From NCBI GenBank assembly GCA_030037185.1, contig JASHRR010001286.1, positions 1 to 7,865 on the forward strand: 7,865 bases of DNA, written 5' to 3'. A program made the position numbers and the translations under genes. The stretch's first letter is position 1. Each line of letters starts with the position of its first letter. The DNA is from Xanthobacteraceae bacterium (GTDB lineage: Bacteria; Pseudomonadota; Alphaproteobacteria; Rhizobiales; Xanthobacteraceae). Below the pieces are notes generated by a model. The model was not told the DNA's origin. It saw nothing but the letters and a program-made list of their open reading frames with translations, and searched no databases. Shown one piece after another: positions 2,163-7,606 of the stretch.

Positions 2163-3269
2163 CTACCCGCGAAAGTGCTTGGACAGCTTCAAGCCCTGCG
2201 CCTGGTAGGTCGAACCGATGCTCCGGCCATAGAGCGCATCGGGCCGCACCAGCATGCGTTCGTAGACGAGCCGGCCGACGATCTGGCCGTGCTCGATAAT
2301 GAATGGCACCTCGCGGGAACGCACCTCCAGCACCGCGCGCGAGCCTCGCCCGCCGGCGCCCGCGTAACCGAATCCTGGATCGAAGAAGCCCGCGTAGTGG
2401 ACGCGGAATTCGCCGACAAGCGGATCAAACGGCACCATCTCGGCGGCATAATCGGGCGGCACCTGGACGGCCTCCTTGGACGCCAGGATGTAGAATTCGT
2501 CGGGGTCGAGAATCAGGCTGCGGTCGTGTCTGGCGCGGATCGGCTCCCAGAATTCCGCAATATCGTAGCTGGCGCGGCGATCCACATCGATGACGCCGGT
2601 ATGGCGCTTGGCGCGGTAACCGATGGATTTATCCGCGCCGAAGCCGACGAGATCGACACCGACCAGAACGCCGTCGGAAAGGTCTGGAGCTTCGCTGTCA
2701 ACCAGGCGCTCGCGCCAATGCAGTGTGGCAAGGGCATCGTCCGTCAGCACCGCATGGCCGCGGCGAAACCTCAGCTGCGACAGACGCGACCCTTCGCGTA
2801 CCAGCACCGGGAAGGTGCGCGGGCTGATCTCGGCGTAAAGCGGACCATGGTAGCCGGCATTAACGCGGTCGAATCCACGGGTCTGGTCGGCGATCACCCG
2901 GGTGAAGACATCAAGCCGGCCGGTCGAGCTTTTCGGATTGGCGGAGGCTGCGATGTCCGGCGGCAAGCATAGGCTTTCCATCAGAGGCACGATGTAGACG
3001 CACCCGGTCTCGAGCACGGCGCCGTCGCCGAGCGGAATCTCGTGCAGCTTCAGTTCGTCGATGCGCTCTCCCACGGTGGAAGCGCGCCCCGGCAGGAAAC
3101 TGGCCCGGACCCGATAGGCGATCTCGCCGAGACGCAGGTCAACGCTCGCAGGCTGGATCTGATCGTCCTCGAGCGCGCTCGCCGGGATAAGGACGCCGGC
3201 CTTGACAAGCGCCGCAATCAGGCGATCGGGTAGGATGCCTTTTTCGTCGGCAGGCAAATTCAACGACAC
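2163..3269 (-). CDS. dcd: dCTP deaminase, long two-domain form
   Basis: This enzyme deaminates dCTP to dUTP and ammonia, feeding dUMP and hence dTMP synthesis in the cytosol. At 368 residues it is about twice the length of E. coli Dcd and fits the alphaproteobacterial long form. The first half has the dUTPase-like signature: QIQPASVDLRLG (37-48), the nucleotide-binding KSSTGR (113-118) and the strand AEISP, with E147 aligning with the catalytic Glu of E. coli Dcd. The second half repeats the fold at a near-constant offset of 168 residues: Y92/Y260, PPD 103-105/271-273, E147/E315, P154/P322, G160/G328. It lacks the SSxxR motif, so it is probably structural. The start is GTG, with AGGA eight bases upstream and no better ATG nearby. 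The gene is divergent from metZ and appears to be a single-gene unit. Confidence 0.92.
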   Translation of the reverse strand: MSLNLPADEKGILPDRLIAALVKAGVLIPASALEDDQIQPASVDLRLGEIAYRVRASFLPGRASTVGERIDELKLHEIPLGDGAVLETGCVYIVPLMESLCLPPDIAASANPKSSTGRLDVFTRVIADQTRGFDRVNAGYHGPLYAEISPRTFPVLVREGSRLSQLRFRRGHAVLTDDALATLHWRERLVDSEAPDLSDGVLVGVDLVGFGADKSIGYRAKRHTGVIDVDRRASYDIAEFWEPIRARHDRSLILDPDEFYILASKEAVQVPPDYAAEMVPFDPLVGEFRVHYAGFFDPGFGYAGAGGRGSRAVLEVRSREVPFIIEHGQIVGRLVYERMLVRPDALYGRSIGSTYQAQGLKLSKHFRG

Positions 3270-3574: not shown

Positions 3575-4759
3575 ATGTCCGTGTCCCGCGACCTCAGCCC
3601 CGAAACGCGGCTCGTTCACGCCGGTACTCTGCGTTCGCAATTCGGCGAAACGTCGGAAGCGTTGTTCCTCACGCAAGGCTTTGTCTACGCCAGTGCCGAG
3701 CAGTGCGAGGCCCGCTTTACCGGCGCCGATCCGGGCTACCAGTACTCGCGGTTTTCGAATCCCACAGTACACATGCTGGAGAGCCGGATGGCTGCGTTCG
3801 AGGGGGCCGAAGCAGCTCGCGCCACCGCAACCGGCATGGCGGCGGTCCATAATGCCATCGTCGGACAGGTGAAGGCCGGCGATCACGTGATTGCCGCCAA
3901 GGCGCTGTTTGGTTCATGCCGCTGGGTGGTAGAGGAATTTCTGCCGCGGTTCGGCGTCGCCTCGACGCTCGTTGACGGGCTCGATCTCGATGAGTGGCGC
4001 AGCGCCATCCGGCCGAACACGAAAGTGTTCTTTCTCGAAAGCCCGACCAATCCGACACTCGAGGTTCTCGATATCGCTGCGATCGCGGCGCTCGCCCATG
4101 ACGCCGGGGCCCGCCTCGTGGTGGACAATGTGTTCGCGACCCCGATCTACCAGTCTCCGCTGGAGCTCGGGGCCGATTGCGTCGTTTATTCGGCGACCAA
4201 GCATATTGACGGCCAGGGCCGCTGCCTCGGGGGCGTTATCCTGGGGTCGGAAAAGTTCATCCAGGACAATATCCATAACCTGCTTCGCCAAACCGGACCG
4301 GCGATGTCGCCGTTCAATGCCTGGGTGCTGCTCAAGGGTCTGGAGACGCTGCCGCTGCGGGTCGCCCGGCAAACCCAAAATGCCGCCGCGATCGCCGACT
4401 TGCTCGCAGGCCATCCCAAAATCACCCGGCTTGTCTATCCAGGCCGGGCTGACCACCCACAGGCGGCGACCATCAAAAAGCAGATGCGCGGTGGATCAAA
4501 CCTGGTGGCGTTCGAGGTGGCGGGCGGCAAGCCGGCGGCGTTTCGCTTTCTCAACGCATTGAAGCTGGTGCACATCACCAACAATCTGGGCGATGCAAAG
4601 AGCCTGATCACCCATCCGGCAACCACGACCCACCAACGGTTGACCCCGGCGGCACGCGCCGAACTCGGCATCAGCGACGGGCTGGTGAGGCTCTCGGTCG
4701 GTCTTGAACACCTTGATGATATCGCGGCGGACCTGACCGTGGCGCTGGAAAAGGCGTGA
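3575..4759 (+). CDS. metZ: O-succinylhomoserine sulfhydrylase (MetZ)
   Basis: This cytosolic, pyridoxal-phosphate (PLP)-dependent enzyme joins O-succinylhomoserine and sulfide to make homocysteine, the direct-sulfhydrylation branch of methionine synthesis. The 394 residues match the Cys/Met metabolism PLP family. Visible motifs are YSRFSNPT (57-64, phosphate contact from the neighbouring subunit), ATGMAA (85-90), ESPTNPT (155-161), VVDNVFATP (182-190, D184 holding the PLP ring nitrogen), SATKHIDGQGR (206-216) with K209 as the Schiff-base lysine, SLITHPATTTH (343-353) and R372 binding the substrate carboxylate. The start has a strong Shine-Dalgarno AAAGGAGG (3562-3569) five bases upstream. That site lies in the loop and 3' arm of a small GGCC/GGCC hairpin (3558-3571). 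Family members are hard to split by sequence, so an O-acetylhomoserine sulfhydrylase or gamma-synthase is possible; the SAM-II leader and overall match favour MetZ. Confidence 0.92.
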   Translation: MSVSRDLSPETRLVHAGTLRSQFGETSEALFLTQGFVYASAEQCEARFTGADPGYQYSRFSNPTVHMLESRMAAFEGAEAARATATGMAAVHNAIVGQVKAGDHVIAAKALFGSCRWVVEEFLPRFGVASTLVDGLDLDEWRSAIRPNTKVFFLESPTNPTLEVLDIAAIAALAHDAGARLVVDNVFATPIYQSPLELGADCVVYSATKHIDGQGRCLGGVILGSEKFIQDNIHNLLRQTGPAMSPFNAWVLLKGLETLPLRVARQTQNAAAIADLLAGHPKITRLVYPGRADHPQAATIKKQMRGGSNLVAFEVAGGKPAAFRFLNALKLVHITNNLGDAKSLITHPATTTHQRLTPAARAELGISDGLVRLSVGLEHLDDIAADLTVALEKA

Positions 4760-4891: not shown

Positions 4892-5686
4892 CTATTTCGC
4901 GGTTACCGCCCCGGCAGACACAACCGGTTGCGTTGCCGCGTCGGCAATGGCAGCGCCCAACAGCTTCGCAAAGCACCCGTAGCCCCAATCGTTCATGTGC
5001 AACAGATCCGGCGACAGGAATGTCTCGAATGGAATCGCCGCTGCATCGTGCCATTCCCTCATGACGGCAAAGCGCGGAAACAGATCAACGCCGCGGCTGG
5101 CGGACGCCGCCGCAATGTCACTCACCATGCCTTCCGCGTCGGGCTTGGCAAGCACCTTCGGGGCAAATTGCGGATCGATCAGCACCACGTCGGCGCCAAG
5201 CGCCTTCATGCGTGCGAGGCCATCAACGATCAGCTGGTCAACCGGTCCAATCGGACTATCGCGCAGCACCGCGTTGGTACCGACCTGCCACAGCACCACA
5301 TCAGGCTTGTCATCGGCGGCGGCCTGGTCAAACCGTGCCAGCATATCGGCGGCTTCTTCGCCGTTGACGCCACGGTTTACCACAGTGATGGCCGCTCCGG
5401 GAAACCGGCTGCGCAATTCGACCTCGAGACGGGCCGGATATGACGCCGCCGGGCTGCTGGCGCCCGCGCCGGCGGTCGATGAGGAGCCAAGGGCCATTAT
5501 GGTTACCGGGTGCCCGGCCGCGATGAGCCGTCGCATCCGCGGCAATGGCGCGGAAAGCCGCCCCAAATGGGCATTGTCGCTGCACGCGTAGGCAGCGTCA
5601 TCCGCCCCGGCTGCCGAGGCGGGCGGGCACAGCGCTGTCCCGGCAAGGATGGCGGCGACCGCGAAGGAGCGAATTGAACGAGTCAC
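4892..5686 (-). CDS. exported SGNH/GDSL-family hydrolase or acyltransferase, catalytic motifs intact
   Basis: The product is 264 residues from a GTG start four bases after the stop of the upstream gene. The start is chosen because it opens straight into a signal peptide: Arg-rich N-terminus, hydrophobic core FAVAAILAGTAL, likely cleavage after PPASA near residue 25. The open frame runs further upstream but only overlaps the neighbour. The SGNH fold motifs are complete: block I LGSSSTAG with nucleophile S69, block II G106 in NRGVNG, block III GTN with N138, and block V D217-x-x-H220. Such enzymes hydrolyse or transfer acyl groups on glycans, lipids or peptidoglycan. Location in the periplasm and co-transcription with an OpgC-family acyltransferase suggest a glycan acyl group as substrate, which is inference. 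It is homologous to the gene just upstream. Confidence 0.88.
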   Translation of the reverse strand: MTRSIRSFAVAAILAGTALCPPASAAGADDAAYACSDNAHLGRLSAPLPRMRRLIAAGHPVTIMALGSSSTAGAGASSPAASYPARLEVELRSRFPGAAITVVNRGVNGEEAADMLARFDQAAADDKPDVVLWQVGTNAVLRDSPIGPVDQLIVDGLARMKALGADVVLIDPQFAPKVLAKPDAEGMVSDIAAASASRGVDLFPRFAVMREWHDAAAIPFETFLSPDLLHMNDWGYGCFAKLLGAAIADAATQPVVSAGAVTAK

Positions 5687-5690
5687 GGGA

Positions 5691-6446
5691 TTAGTCCGTT
5701 CCCTTGCCGGCAACGGGCGCCAATTTCGCGCCGGCGACGATGACATCGGCCAACAGTCGTCCCAGGCAATCGTGGACGCGTTCGGCCACATTGGTTGTTC
5801 GCGTTGCTCCATACAGATCAAATACCCCGCTTTCGTTCCAGCGCCGCATAATGGCAAAGCGATCAAACAGAACCGCCTCCCGCTTAAGGGCGATAAACCG
5901 CATCGCATCAGCATAGGCCGTTACAGCCAGCATGGCTTCGGTGCGTGGACTGTACTGCATATTCATGAACACCACATCGGCATCGGCAGCGCGCAGTCGC
6001 TCGACGCCGTCGTCGAGAGCGACGCGGAATTCTTCAGGATCGACGCCGCGAATGGCGTCCGCCGTGCCCGTTTGCCAGATCACCAGCGCAGGCGCAGTTT
6101 CGGAGATGATGCGGGTAAGCTTGGCCTCCATTTCCGCCGCACTCTCCCTCGCCCGCGCGTAAGTAGCGACCGTGACAGTCACGCCGGGCAGAAGGCTGCG
6201 TAGCGTCTCCTGTAGCCAGGTCGGATAAGCGATATTCGTTCCGGCCGGACCGGTGAGTTCCGAAGACGCACTGCCGATGACGGCAACACCGAGCTTTTTC
6301 CTGGCAATCGCCCGGGCTACGTTAGGCAGGCCGAATTCCGGCGCAACCGTGCCGGCGGCGACGATGCATTCGTTGCCTTCCCTGGCAGCGGTCCCGCTGG
6401 CCCCCAGGGCCAAAGCGCACAGCAGGGCAATGACGATCGGTCTCAT
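5691..6446 (-). CDS. exported SGNH-fold protein lacking the catalytic residues
   Basis: The product is 251 residues, with a signal peptide at MRPIVIALLCALALGASGTA and likely cleavage after TAA. The start ATG overlaps the stop of the upstream OpgC-family gene (ATGA at 6443-6446), so translation is coupled. It aligns end to end with the downstream SGNH protein: shared IGS/LGS strand, YPxxLxxxLRS, WQxGT, ADVV and LFxRFAxMRxW. Yet the active-site positions differ: nucleophile S69 of the partner is A60 here (GSASS), the block II Gly region is TYARARE, block III GTN is GTA, and the DxxH segment is replaced by ATRTTNVAE. The reading frame is intact, so this is a maintained protein and not a pseudogene. 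It is probably a non-catalytic, substrate-binding or scaffolding paralogue in the periplasm. A shifted nucleophile (S61 or S62) is a less likely alternative. Confidence 0.85.
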   Translation of the reverse strand: MRPIVIALLCALALGASGTAAREGNECIVAAGTVAPEFGLPNVARAIARKKLGVAVIGSASSELTGPAGTNIAYPTWLQETLRSLLPGVTVTVATYARARESAAEMEAKLTRIISETAPALVIWQTGTADAIRGVDPEEFRVALDDGVERLRAADADVVFMNMQYSPRTEAMLAVTAYADAMRFIALKREAVLFDRFAIMRRWNESGVFDLYGATRTTNVAERVHDCLGRLLADVIVAGAKLAPVAGKGTD

Positions 6447-7606
6447 GCCCCTCCTCCCACGAGGGTCGCGCCTGGTGGACCAGGGCGCGATCGAGGACTT
6501 CGTCCTTCGATTCTTTTGTACCACGAAATGAGGGTGGCTGTCGCAGTCATTATGGCGATGCCCACCAGACTCATGGCAATCTGCATCAGGATACCCTGGT
6601 TGATCTCCACCATGAGAAAATGGGCCGCAAAGGACAGGAATACCCCCAGGCAGAAAATCTCCAAGGAATGCTGGCCGCAAACGATGGCCGGGCGCAACCA
6701 CGCGGACTGCAGGAGATGCCAGTCGCGCGGTATCGCCCGGACCGTGAGCACCGCCAAGCTGAGGAAATGGGCGAATCGCAGCACGTCGAGGTTCGTCTTG
6801 TCGATCGGATACATCCAATCTGCCAGCCATTGCGGCACAAAGACCTCAAGGTCCGGGATGTACCAGGTCAGCACGATGAGGAATGCGAAGACGAGATAGG
6901 CGATCGCAACCGCGGCCGTGACTGGGGATAGAATCACGGCGGATAGTCGCGCCGCACCCCCGACAGCGCACCAGGCGCCGAACACGAACAGCATCTGCCA
7001 TGCGAACGGATTGAAAAACCAGGTTCCATTCGGGTAGGCCGGGATGTTCCACTCAAAAGATAGCGTCAGCGCGTAAAGCAATATCGAAGCACTCAGCGCA
7101 ACCGTGGGCGCGCGGAGCAGTAGCCACAACAGAGGTGGGAACCCGGCCAGAAGCACGATGTAGAGCGGCAGGACATCCATATTGGCGGGCTTGAATTTGA
7201 GGAGCATCGCCTGCGCCAGGGTGATGTCGGGCTGCTGAAGAAAGTCGAAAATGCCCATTTCCTCATGATAAAGCGGATTTTCGAAAGTATGGGCGACGTA
7301 GGAAATCTCCGCGGTATAAATGGCGAACAGGAAGATATGAGCCACGTAAACTTGCCAGGCCCGTTTGAGGATGCGGGCGCCGGCCACCAGGGTGCCTTGC
7401 TCGCGCATCGCGCGGCCGTACACGAATGCGGCGGTGTAACCGGAAATGAAAACGAAAATCTCGGTGGCGTCGGAAAAGCCGTAGTTGCGTATCGTCACCC
7501 AGTTGAGGACGTTCGATGGGATGTGGTCGAGGAAAATAAGCCACAGTGCGAGTCCGCGAAACAAATCGAGCCGAAGGTCGCGTTCGCCTGGCTTGGGTAA
7601 CGACAT
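6443..7606 (-). CDS. OpgC-family membrane acyltransferase
   Basis: The product is 387 residues, with roughly ten hydrophobic membrane segments spread over residues 14-363. OpgC proteins belong to the acyltransferase-3-like superfamily; the named member succinylates osmoregulated periplasmic glucans. Visible family features are the N-terminal R9-D10-LRLD14-LFRG18 motif leading into the first helix, D27-H28 at its end, FVFISGY (51-57), NPFAWQMLFVFG (199-210) and CGQHSLEIFCLG (310-321). The C-terminal tail (KRIEGRSPRSRPG) is basic and probably cytoplasmic. The start ATG at 7606 has AAGGAA six bases upstream; the frame stays open for another 46 codons but that extension lacks family features. It is the first gene of an operon with two exported SGNH proteins. 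The acyl group and the acceptor are not known from sequence. Confidence 0.87.
   Translation of the reverse strand: MSLPKPGERDLRLDLFRGLALWLIFLDHIPSNVLNWVTIRNYGFSDATEIFVFISGYTAAFVYGRAMREQGTLVAGARILKRAWQVYVAHIFLFAIYTAEISYVAHTFENPLYHEEMGIFDFLQQPDITLAQAMLLKFKPANMDVLPLYIVLLAGFPPLLWLLLRAPTVALSASILLYALTLSFEWNIPAYPNGTWFFNPFAWQMLFVFGAWCAVGGAARLSAVILSPVTAAVAIAYLVFAFLIVLTWYIPDLEVFVPQWLADWMYPIDKTNLDVLRFAHFLSLAVLTVRAIPRDWHLLQSAWLRPAIVCGQHSLEIFCLGVFLSFAAHFLMVEINQGILMQIAMSLVGIAIMTATATLISWYKRIEGRSPRSRPGPPGATLVGGGA

Follow-up and report, generated by a model that had tools for sequence, protein, structure and literature searches.

Can a membrane acyltransferase of the OpgC family be partnered by separate, exported SGNH proteins encoded at its side? 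This question is raised by a 7,865-nucleotide contig of a Xanthobacteraceae bacterium (JASHRR010001286.1, assembly GCA_030037185.1), the whole of which is hereafter termed the window, in which an OpgC gene is followed on the minus strand by genes for two SGNH-type proteins, named here S1 and S2. An earlier note on this DNA had taken the three genes to encode a separated version of those machines in which a membrane acyltransferase passes an acyl group to an SGNH domain outside. As detailed below, the three-gene unit is real and its linkage firm, and it comprises a live/dead SGNH pair in which, as judged from aligned residues, the active site of S2 is intact and that of S1 is lost. The relevant features are the following:

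6443..7606, minus strand: OpgC-family membrane acyltransferase (387 aa; PF10129, 473 bits, positions 1-358 of 358)
7523..7558, minus strand: R17...H28 of OpgC (R-X10-H), conserved in OpgC groups A, B and C
5691..6446, minus strand: S1 (251 aa), an exported protein of the SGNH fold whose active site is degenerate
6261..6275, minus strand: S1 block I region G58-S62 (GSASS), with A60 aligning to the S2 nucleophile
4892..5686, minus strand: S2 (264 aa, with a GTG start), an exported SGNH protein in which the catalytic residues are complete
5480..5482, minus strand: S2 Ser69, predicted nucleophile in block I (GSSST), aligned to the GDS serine of 7c23
4997..5008, minus strand: S2 Asp227-x-x-His230 (block V), found in 74 of 75 rows, the other being gapped

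Linkage of OpgC to its SGNH partners

The genes are arranged in the order OpgC-S1-S2, with a 4-base overlap between OpgC and S1 and a 4-base gap between S1 and S2, confirming the coordinates and spacings originally reported for a compact unit. In the window, as in the linked loci read, the OpgC and SGNH parts are separate open reading frames (ORFs); no ORF matching both, as would a natural fusion, was found among those linked loci, with no dedicated search having been made elsewhere. Assignment of the first gene product as an OpgC-family membrane acyltransferase also stood, given the match over the whole PF10129 domain. PF01757 was matched at 30.6 bits, just below the cut-off of 31. As PF10129 and PF01757 were the only families matched at E values of up to 1, the protein is not a membrane-bound O-acyltransferase (MBOAT). 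A search of solved structures with the OpgC sequence yielded one poor match only.

A scan of named genome contigs returned 589 OpgC relatives, from which the top 80 were taken forward (L001-L080; loci and genomes are referred to by L and G numbers, respectively). By title, many of these 80 belong to Xanthobacteraceae, Nitrobacteraceae or other Hyphomicrobiales. S1 was present at 79 and S2 at 75 of these 80 closest loci, in the order OpgC-S1-S2, with the OpgC-S1 spacing being -4 in 66 of the 79. The loci without S2 were L030, L043, L059, L060 and L064. For two of these, the contig limits the call, with L064 stopping at OpgC and L060 shortly past S1; in the genomes of L030 and L043, an intact S2-like gene lies at another place, and in that of L059, no intact S2-like gene over the cut-off was found.

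Because the 80 loci had been chosen by OpgC likeness, an independent sample of 289 genomes from the class of Rhodoplanes serenus was also considered (with L011 corresponding to G001). Full-length OpgC, defined by a match of >100 bits, was encoded in 53 of these genomes (61 genes), and the SGNH family PF25182, counted over its cut-off, in 30 (49 matches, two being pieces of one broken gene in G234); over-cut-off SGNH figures, both here and in the phylum sample below, are among the matches listed. Full-length OpgC was found in 29 of the 30 PF25182 genomes, as opposed to 24 of the 259 others (p 3.5e-24). Moreover, 42 of the 49 PF25182 matches and 28 of the 61 OpgC genes lay within 3 kb of a partner. 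As a control, 0 of 36 under-cut-off SGNH hits from OpgC-bearing genomes, among the matches listed, lay within 3 kb of OpgC. As such, the notion of a separated acyltransferase-plus-SGNH unit whose genes are kept together held up, and the contrary prospect that the genes would rarely be neighbours in relatives was borne out neither in the 80 loci nor in the 289 genomes.

At the level of the phylum, PF25182 was found over its cut-off in 25 of 299 genomes, 18 of which were new relative to the class sample; for six of these (G492, G562, G437, G323, G476 and G392), the main S1/S2 loci are represented by coordinates only. Among the 20 stretches fetched, OpgC was present in nine and absent from 11, with eight of those 11 being extra copies in genomes that have another strong copy.

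The 33 class-sample OpgC genes without an SGNH neighbour were represented by 26 that were fetched, the seven lowest-scoring having been left out. In a 61-row OpgC tree, 28 rows, including the window, formed a clade (support 98/98) in which all have an SGNH neighbour, and 18 rows formed a second (support 100/100) in which none does. SGNH linkage turned up again in the mixed remainder. No positions that are fixed within both clades yet differ between them were found. R17, H28 and Y149 are conserved in OpgC groups A, B and C (28, 12 and 18 rows, respectively). Given this conservation, Y149 is a candidate only for an acyl-Tyr site. An R-X10-H motif has been reported for AT3 proteins in the accessible text of PMC9558356.

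The layout of the unit varies at some loci, with S2 being divergent from OpgC in two genomes (L096 and L100, in G208 and G095, respectively) and upstream in one (L084, in G052). Three full-length OpgC genes are found in G002 (L141, Afipia) and two in G006 (L142). At both L141 and L142, an intact S2-like gene lies about 5 kb from one OpgC, with unrelated genes in between in L141.

An intact and a degenerate SGNH protein

In S2 of the window, the five SGNH catalytic columns are occupied by S, G, N, D and H. All five residues are present in 74 of 75 rows, the remaining row being gapped, and the nucleophile column is Ser in all 75. In the structure model, a short helix begins at Ser69. The top structural match is a carbohydrate esterase, and TesA-type chains were found among both the sequence and the structure matches.

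In S1 of the window, the same columns hold A, A, A, R and N. None of the five catalytic residues is found in 75 of 80 S1 rows, with Ser alone being present in the other five; the Ser column reads Gly in 30 rows, Arg in 22, Ala in 20, Ser in five, Thr in two and Phe in one. S1 does present the SGNH alpha/beta fold. Thus, of the claim that OpgC has two exported SGNH partners, the fold assignment applies to both proteins, but one of the two is catalytically degenerate, a point that the earlier note had missed. One HMMER alignment to a solved esterase places S62, rather than A60, at the S1 nucleophile, with the other four residues being lost regardless.

That alignment would suit a scheme in which S1 is not dead but rather an enzyme of its own with a shifted active site, comprising S61 or S62, D130 and H225. 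Indeed, among the 80 close S1 rows, His225 and an Asp or Glu at position 130 are invariant, and Ser or Thr occupies position 61 in 78. In a wider set of 26 S1 rows, however, position 225 is His in only 16 (the others mostly having Tyr) and position 61 is Ser in 19, and the oxyanion Gly and Asn of S1 are lost too. Moreover, the block I loop of S1 is predicted with low confidence (mean predicted local distance difference test score of 52 for residues 61-70) and, as modelled, has no counterpart of the helix that begins at the nucleophile of S2. A shifted active site is, as such, considered improbable.

S1 is under purifying selection, with the ratio of nonsynonymous to synonymous substitution rates (dN/dS) being 0.09-0.34 in 14 of 14 pairs, these having been chosen for closeness. 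The possibility that S1 is a decaying pseudogene was rejected, given these values and the fact that 79 of 80 loci have an S1 ORF whose domain match spans at least 255 residues. A broken copy, split into two frames, was encountered at the distant locus L091 (G234).

Across the close loci, two Cys, W124, Q125, G127, Q164, P167, R196, M200 and W203 (S1 numbering) are invariant or nearly so in both S1 and S2. These shared positions lie outside the lost catalytic set, and some vary in distant rows. Their conservation suggests a role for the fold or surface outside catalysis, and would be compatible with a disulfide and with a surface common to both proteins.

S1 formed one clade both in a 70-row SGNH tree (support 100/100) and in a quick tree of 85 rows built without the active-site columns (98 in the Shimodaira-Hasegawa-like approximate likelihood ratio test). 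The SGNH residue counts and trees do not include L091, which consists of two short pieces, and the second tree does not include L102, which is near-identical to L101. In the class sample, every row of the S1 clade is without Asn and His; L081 keeps Asp and some rows keep Ser and Gly. L097 scores slightly better as S2, yet is degenerate and lies inside the S1 clade. Class-sample rows outside the clade are intact, except for L105 and L106.

The 85-row tree holds six degenerate copies outside the S1 clade, namely, L105, L106, L148, L151, L153 and L155, with the intact L107, L147 and L157 grouping with L105. Gly is kept in all six and Ser in five (Thr in L105), Asn is kept in three, Asp in L105 alone and His in none. 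The well-supported branches require no fewer than three switches between the intact and the degenerate state, equivalent to three losses if no active site was ever regained. The tree thus implies at least two active-site losses beyond the S1 clade, in OpgC-linked copies.

When linkage was scored for rows from L081-L165 (L001-L080 being absent from this table), 24 of 24 degenerate copies were OpgC-linked, whereas the 45 intact copies were divided into 24 linked and 21 unlinked (p 1.8e-5, the rows being related). Here, a copy is termed unlinked when the stretch fetched contains no OpgC less than 2 kb away, with L109, L114 and L159 being near a contig end and so of uncertain linkage, and with OpgC lying about 5 kb off in L141 and L142; L161 was scored as intact despite a Leu at the Asp column of the alignment. 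This tie of putatively dead SGNH copies to OpgC is suggestive, not proven. A degenerate copy was scored in 25 sampled genomes (the broken copy of G234 not being counted); of these, 23 also carry an intact one, the exceptions, among the matches listed, being G130 and G444. In G197, G291, G545, G421 and G429, intact unlinked copies are found besides the degenerate one.

A proposed split acyl relay

In OatA and PatA/PatB, an acyl-Tyr on the membrane part is followed by an acyl-Ser on the SGNH part, according to the accessible text of PMC12148441. Because this mechanism has been reported for those systems, a split relay can, by analogy, be proposed for OpgC and S2. Specifically, the operon may encode a split extracytoplasmic O-acyltransferase, with OpgC exporting the acyl group, S2 transferring it and S1 being a non-catalytic adaptor. 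OpgC would accept the acyl group on the cytoplasmic side, probably from acyl-coenzyme A (acyl-CoA), and present it outside the inner membrane. S2, with its predicted intact Ser-His-Asp triad, would pick up the acyl group on Ser69 and hand it to a cell-envelope acceptor. S1 would be a non-catalytic subunit, most likely docking S2 or the acceptor to OpgC. We infer transfer rather than hydrolysis, a physical complex and an adaptor role for S1. The proposal as a whole is plausible, although held at somewhat short of an even chance. That acetyl can be passed from a stand-alone AT3 protein to an SGNH protein separate from it has a precedent in WecH, which works with PatB in place of PatA (PMC9558356, in the text accessible), albeit as an engineered laboratory pairing rather than a natural operon.

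Alternatively, OpgC could be self-sufficient, like the succinyltransferases of osmoregulated periplasmic glucans (OPGs), with S2 being an esterase that removes the group, comparable to Ape1 beside PatA/PatB, and S1 playing a binding or regulatory role. In agreement with such an assignment, S2 presents a hydrolase-type Gly/Asn oxyanion hole and its nearest solved folds are esterases, including carbohydrate and peptidoglycan O-acetylesterases. Likewise, characterised OpgCs are described as stand-alone in the accessible part of PMC9558356, intact SGNH copies unlinked to OpgC exist, and the pat operon, according to the descriptions available, also contains an SGNH esterase gene. By contrast, the tight linkage to a special OpgC clade (28 of 28 rows) and the retention of a dead copy better fit a complex, although this is an argument rather than a test. 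The esterase alternative is deemed unlikely, albeit deserving of serious consideration.

Several observations, beginning with these esterase folds, weigh against the split relay. S2 retains the block II Gly, which is replaced in PatB and one OatA; the OatA of Staphylococcus aureus, however, keeps this Gly and is a transferase, such that the residue is not decisive. R17, H28 and Y149 are present too in OpgCs without an SGNH neighbour, and so provide no clear mark of partner dependence in OpgC. Eight OpgC loci (L086, L087, L089, L101-L104 and L107) have a single intact SGNH partner with no S1 nearby, meaning that S1 is not needed everywhere; the same arrangement is seen at L147 and L157. PF25182 occurs without an OpgC match in G071 of the class sample, and at L146, L158 and L159, the only strong copy of the genome is intact and has no OpgC within about 5 kb or up to the contig end. 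No intact PF25182 over the cut-off was found in G130, G444 or G008, drafts that may be incomplete, despite each carrying an S1 or degenerate copy. Finally, Ser and Gly are mostly retained in the later losses, the Asp/His pair being what is missing, and only about three loss events stand behind the p value of 1.8e-5.

In comparison to known systems, the operon resembles the AT3-SGNH fusions OatA, OafA and OafB in combining a membrane acyltransferase, with R-X10-H, and an extracytoplasmic SGNH moiety, yet differs in that three separate genes are involved, pairing OpgC_C (PF10129) with PF25182, and in that the second SGNH copy is degenerate. With PatA/PatB(/Ape1) and DltB/DltD, in which DltD is the SGNH partner of DltB, it shares, as far as the available descriptions go, an operon in which the membrane acyltransferase and an exported SGNH protein are encoded by separate genes. 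Those acyltransferases are, however, MBOATs, whereas here a member of the TmAT/AT3 superfamily and an extra degenerate SGNH protein are found. AlgI-AlgJ-AlgF-AlgX and WssH/I/F/G likewise, in the accounts available, include one membrane acyltransferase and two SGNH-like proteins of distinct roles. Still, AlgI is an MBOAT, unlike OpgC, no polymer synthase genes were seen at the operon here, and AlgJ of alginate acetylation is described in those accounts as having a working triad and esterase activity, whereas in S1 the residues are lost. OpgC/MdoC, the OPG succinyltransferase, belongs to the same Pfam family and has the same conserved residues, but is stand-alone in the descriptions available, with the opgG/opgH-linked clade being separate and without an SGNH neighbour. 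No described OpgC-SGNH partner system was found in the accessible text of the open-licence PMC literature searched.

Should the split relay prove true, some TmAT/AT3 enzymes considered as stand-alone would have natural separate partners, and the operon, found mainly in Hyphomicrobiales among the named loci, offers a recurrent and genetically simple case in which to probe this. The live/dead SGNH pair would, moreover, offer a natural means of separating docking from chemistry. More broadly, and with more doubt than belief, one can envisage a third acyl-export architecture beside MBOAT plus SGNH and the AT3-SGNH fusions, in which an OpgC-type transporter has separate SGNH partners, the linked copy repeatedly becoming a dead adaptor and a paralogue keeping the chemistry.

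Acceptor and chromosomal surroundings

The earlier note had suggested periplasmic glucans, such as cyclic glucans, as the acceptor. The glucan markers considered were MdoG/OpgG and PF10091, with mdoG and opgH-like genes near the loci being sought by single-sequence queries. The beta-1,3/1,6-type glucan synthase of Bradyrhizobium is another glucan synthase, outside these markers. MdoG was found in 40 of the 289 class-sample genomes, eight of them among the 30 with PF25182, and PF10091 in 14, four of them among the 30 (G001, G071, G074 and G190, the match in G071 being to a short stand-alone protein). Overall, 10 of the 30 PF25182 genomes have at least one of the two markers and 20 have neither.

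An operon that adds succinyl groups to osmoregulated periplasmic or cyclic glucans, aided by SGNH proteins, would be in keeping with the OpgC family name and with the succinylation of OPGs by OpgC of Rhodobacter sphaeroides and others (accessible portions of PMC9558356 and PMC4726272). In G285, moreover, the OpgC of L104 (28.5 kb), which is SGNH-linked and falls in the mixed remainder of the OpgC tree, has two MdoG genes at a distance of about 10 kb (C92, 39.7-44.7 kb). On the other hand, single-sequence queries returned no match to mdoG or an opgH-like gene near L001-L114, in loci of up to about 17 kb. Among the 26 unlinked OpgC loci that were fetched, eight have such a gene nearby, each of them in the 18-row clade without SGNH neighbours, and eight genomes carry both linked and unlinked OpgC. 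Nor did the window OpgC group with the opgG/opgH-linked OpgCs, as would an OPG succinyltransferase in the strict sense, lying instead in a separate, well-supported clade. Because of this separation and of the 20 genomes with neither marker, the glucan suggestion is weakly supported, with the G285 locus speaking in its favour, and it is judged rather improbable.

The flanks that recur around the operon are housekeeping genes (Hsp33, ArgF, metZ and dcd) and not glycan genes. This, together with the TesA-type chains among the sequence and structure matches, would be consistent with S2 being TesA-like and acting on a lipid or small ester rather than a glycan. Given that the top structural match is a carbohydrate esterase and that related membrane acyltransferases are, in the descriptions available, mostly known for glycans, a lipid or small-ester acceptor is judged highly improbable. 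The neighbours of unlinked S2 copies (20 proteins from eight loci) are housekeeping or mixed, including a glycosyltransferase in L149 and an epimerase in L110. Deducing the substrate from gene context was set aside, since flanks that are housekeeping or mixed name no substrate.

Elsewhere, a CoA-transferase III cluster is common to OpgC loci L086, L089, L116, L117, L126, L128, L131 and L136, and a thiamine pyrophosphate (TPP)-dependent enzyme cluster is also found in L116, L117, L126, L128 and L131, with one representative of each cluster having been tested. These clusters are a possible clue to the acyl-CoA donor.

Downstream of the operon, the window contains genes for a dCTP deaminase (2163-3269) and a metZ-type O-succinylhomoserine sulfhydrylase (3575-4759). 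In relatives, dcd and metZ homologues recur near the operon, with Hsp33 and ArgF homologues on the opposite side, although gene calls are noisy. As these homologues recur, the region looks like a stable chromosomal neighbourhood. Further along, the gene for a tyrosine-recombinase integrase (792-1820; PF00589) is separated by about 50 bases from an opposite-strand tRNA-Gly(CCC) gene (1873-1946), an arrangement that is frequent at tRNA genes used by an element as its integration site.

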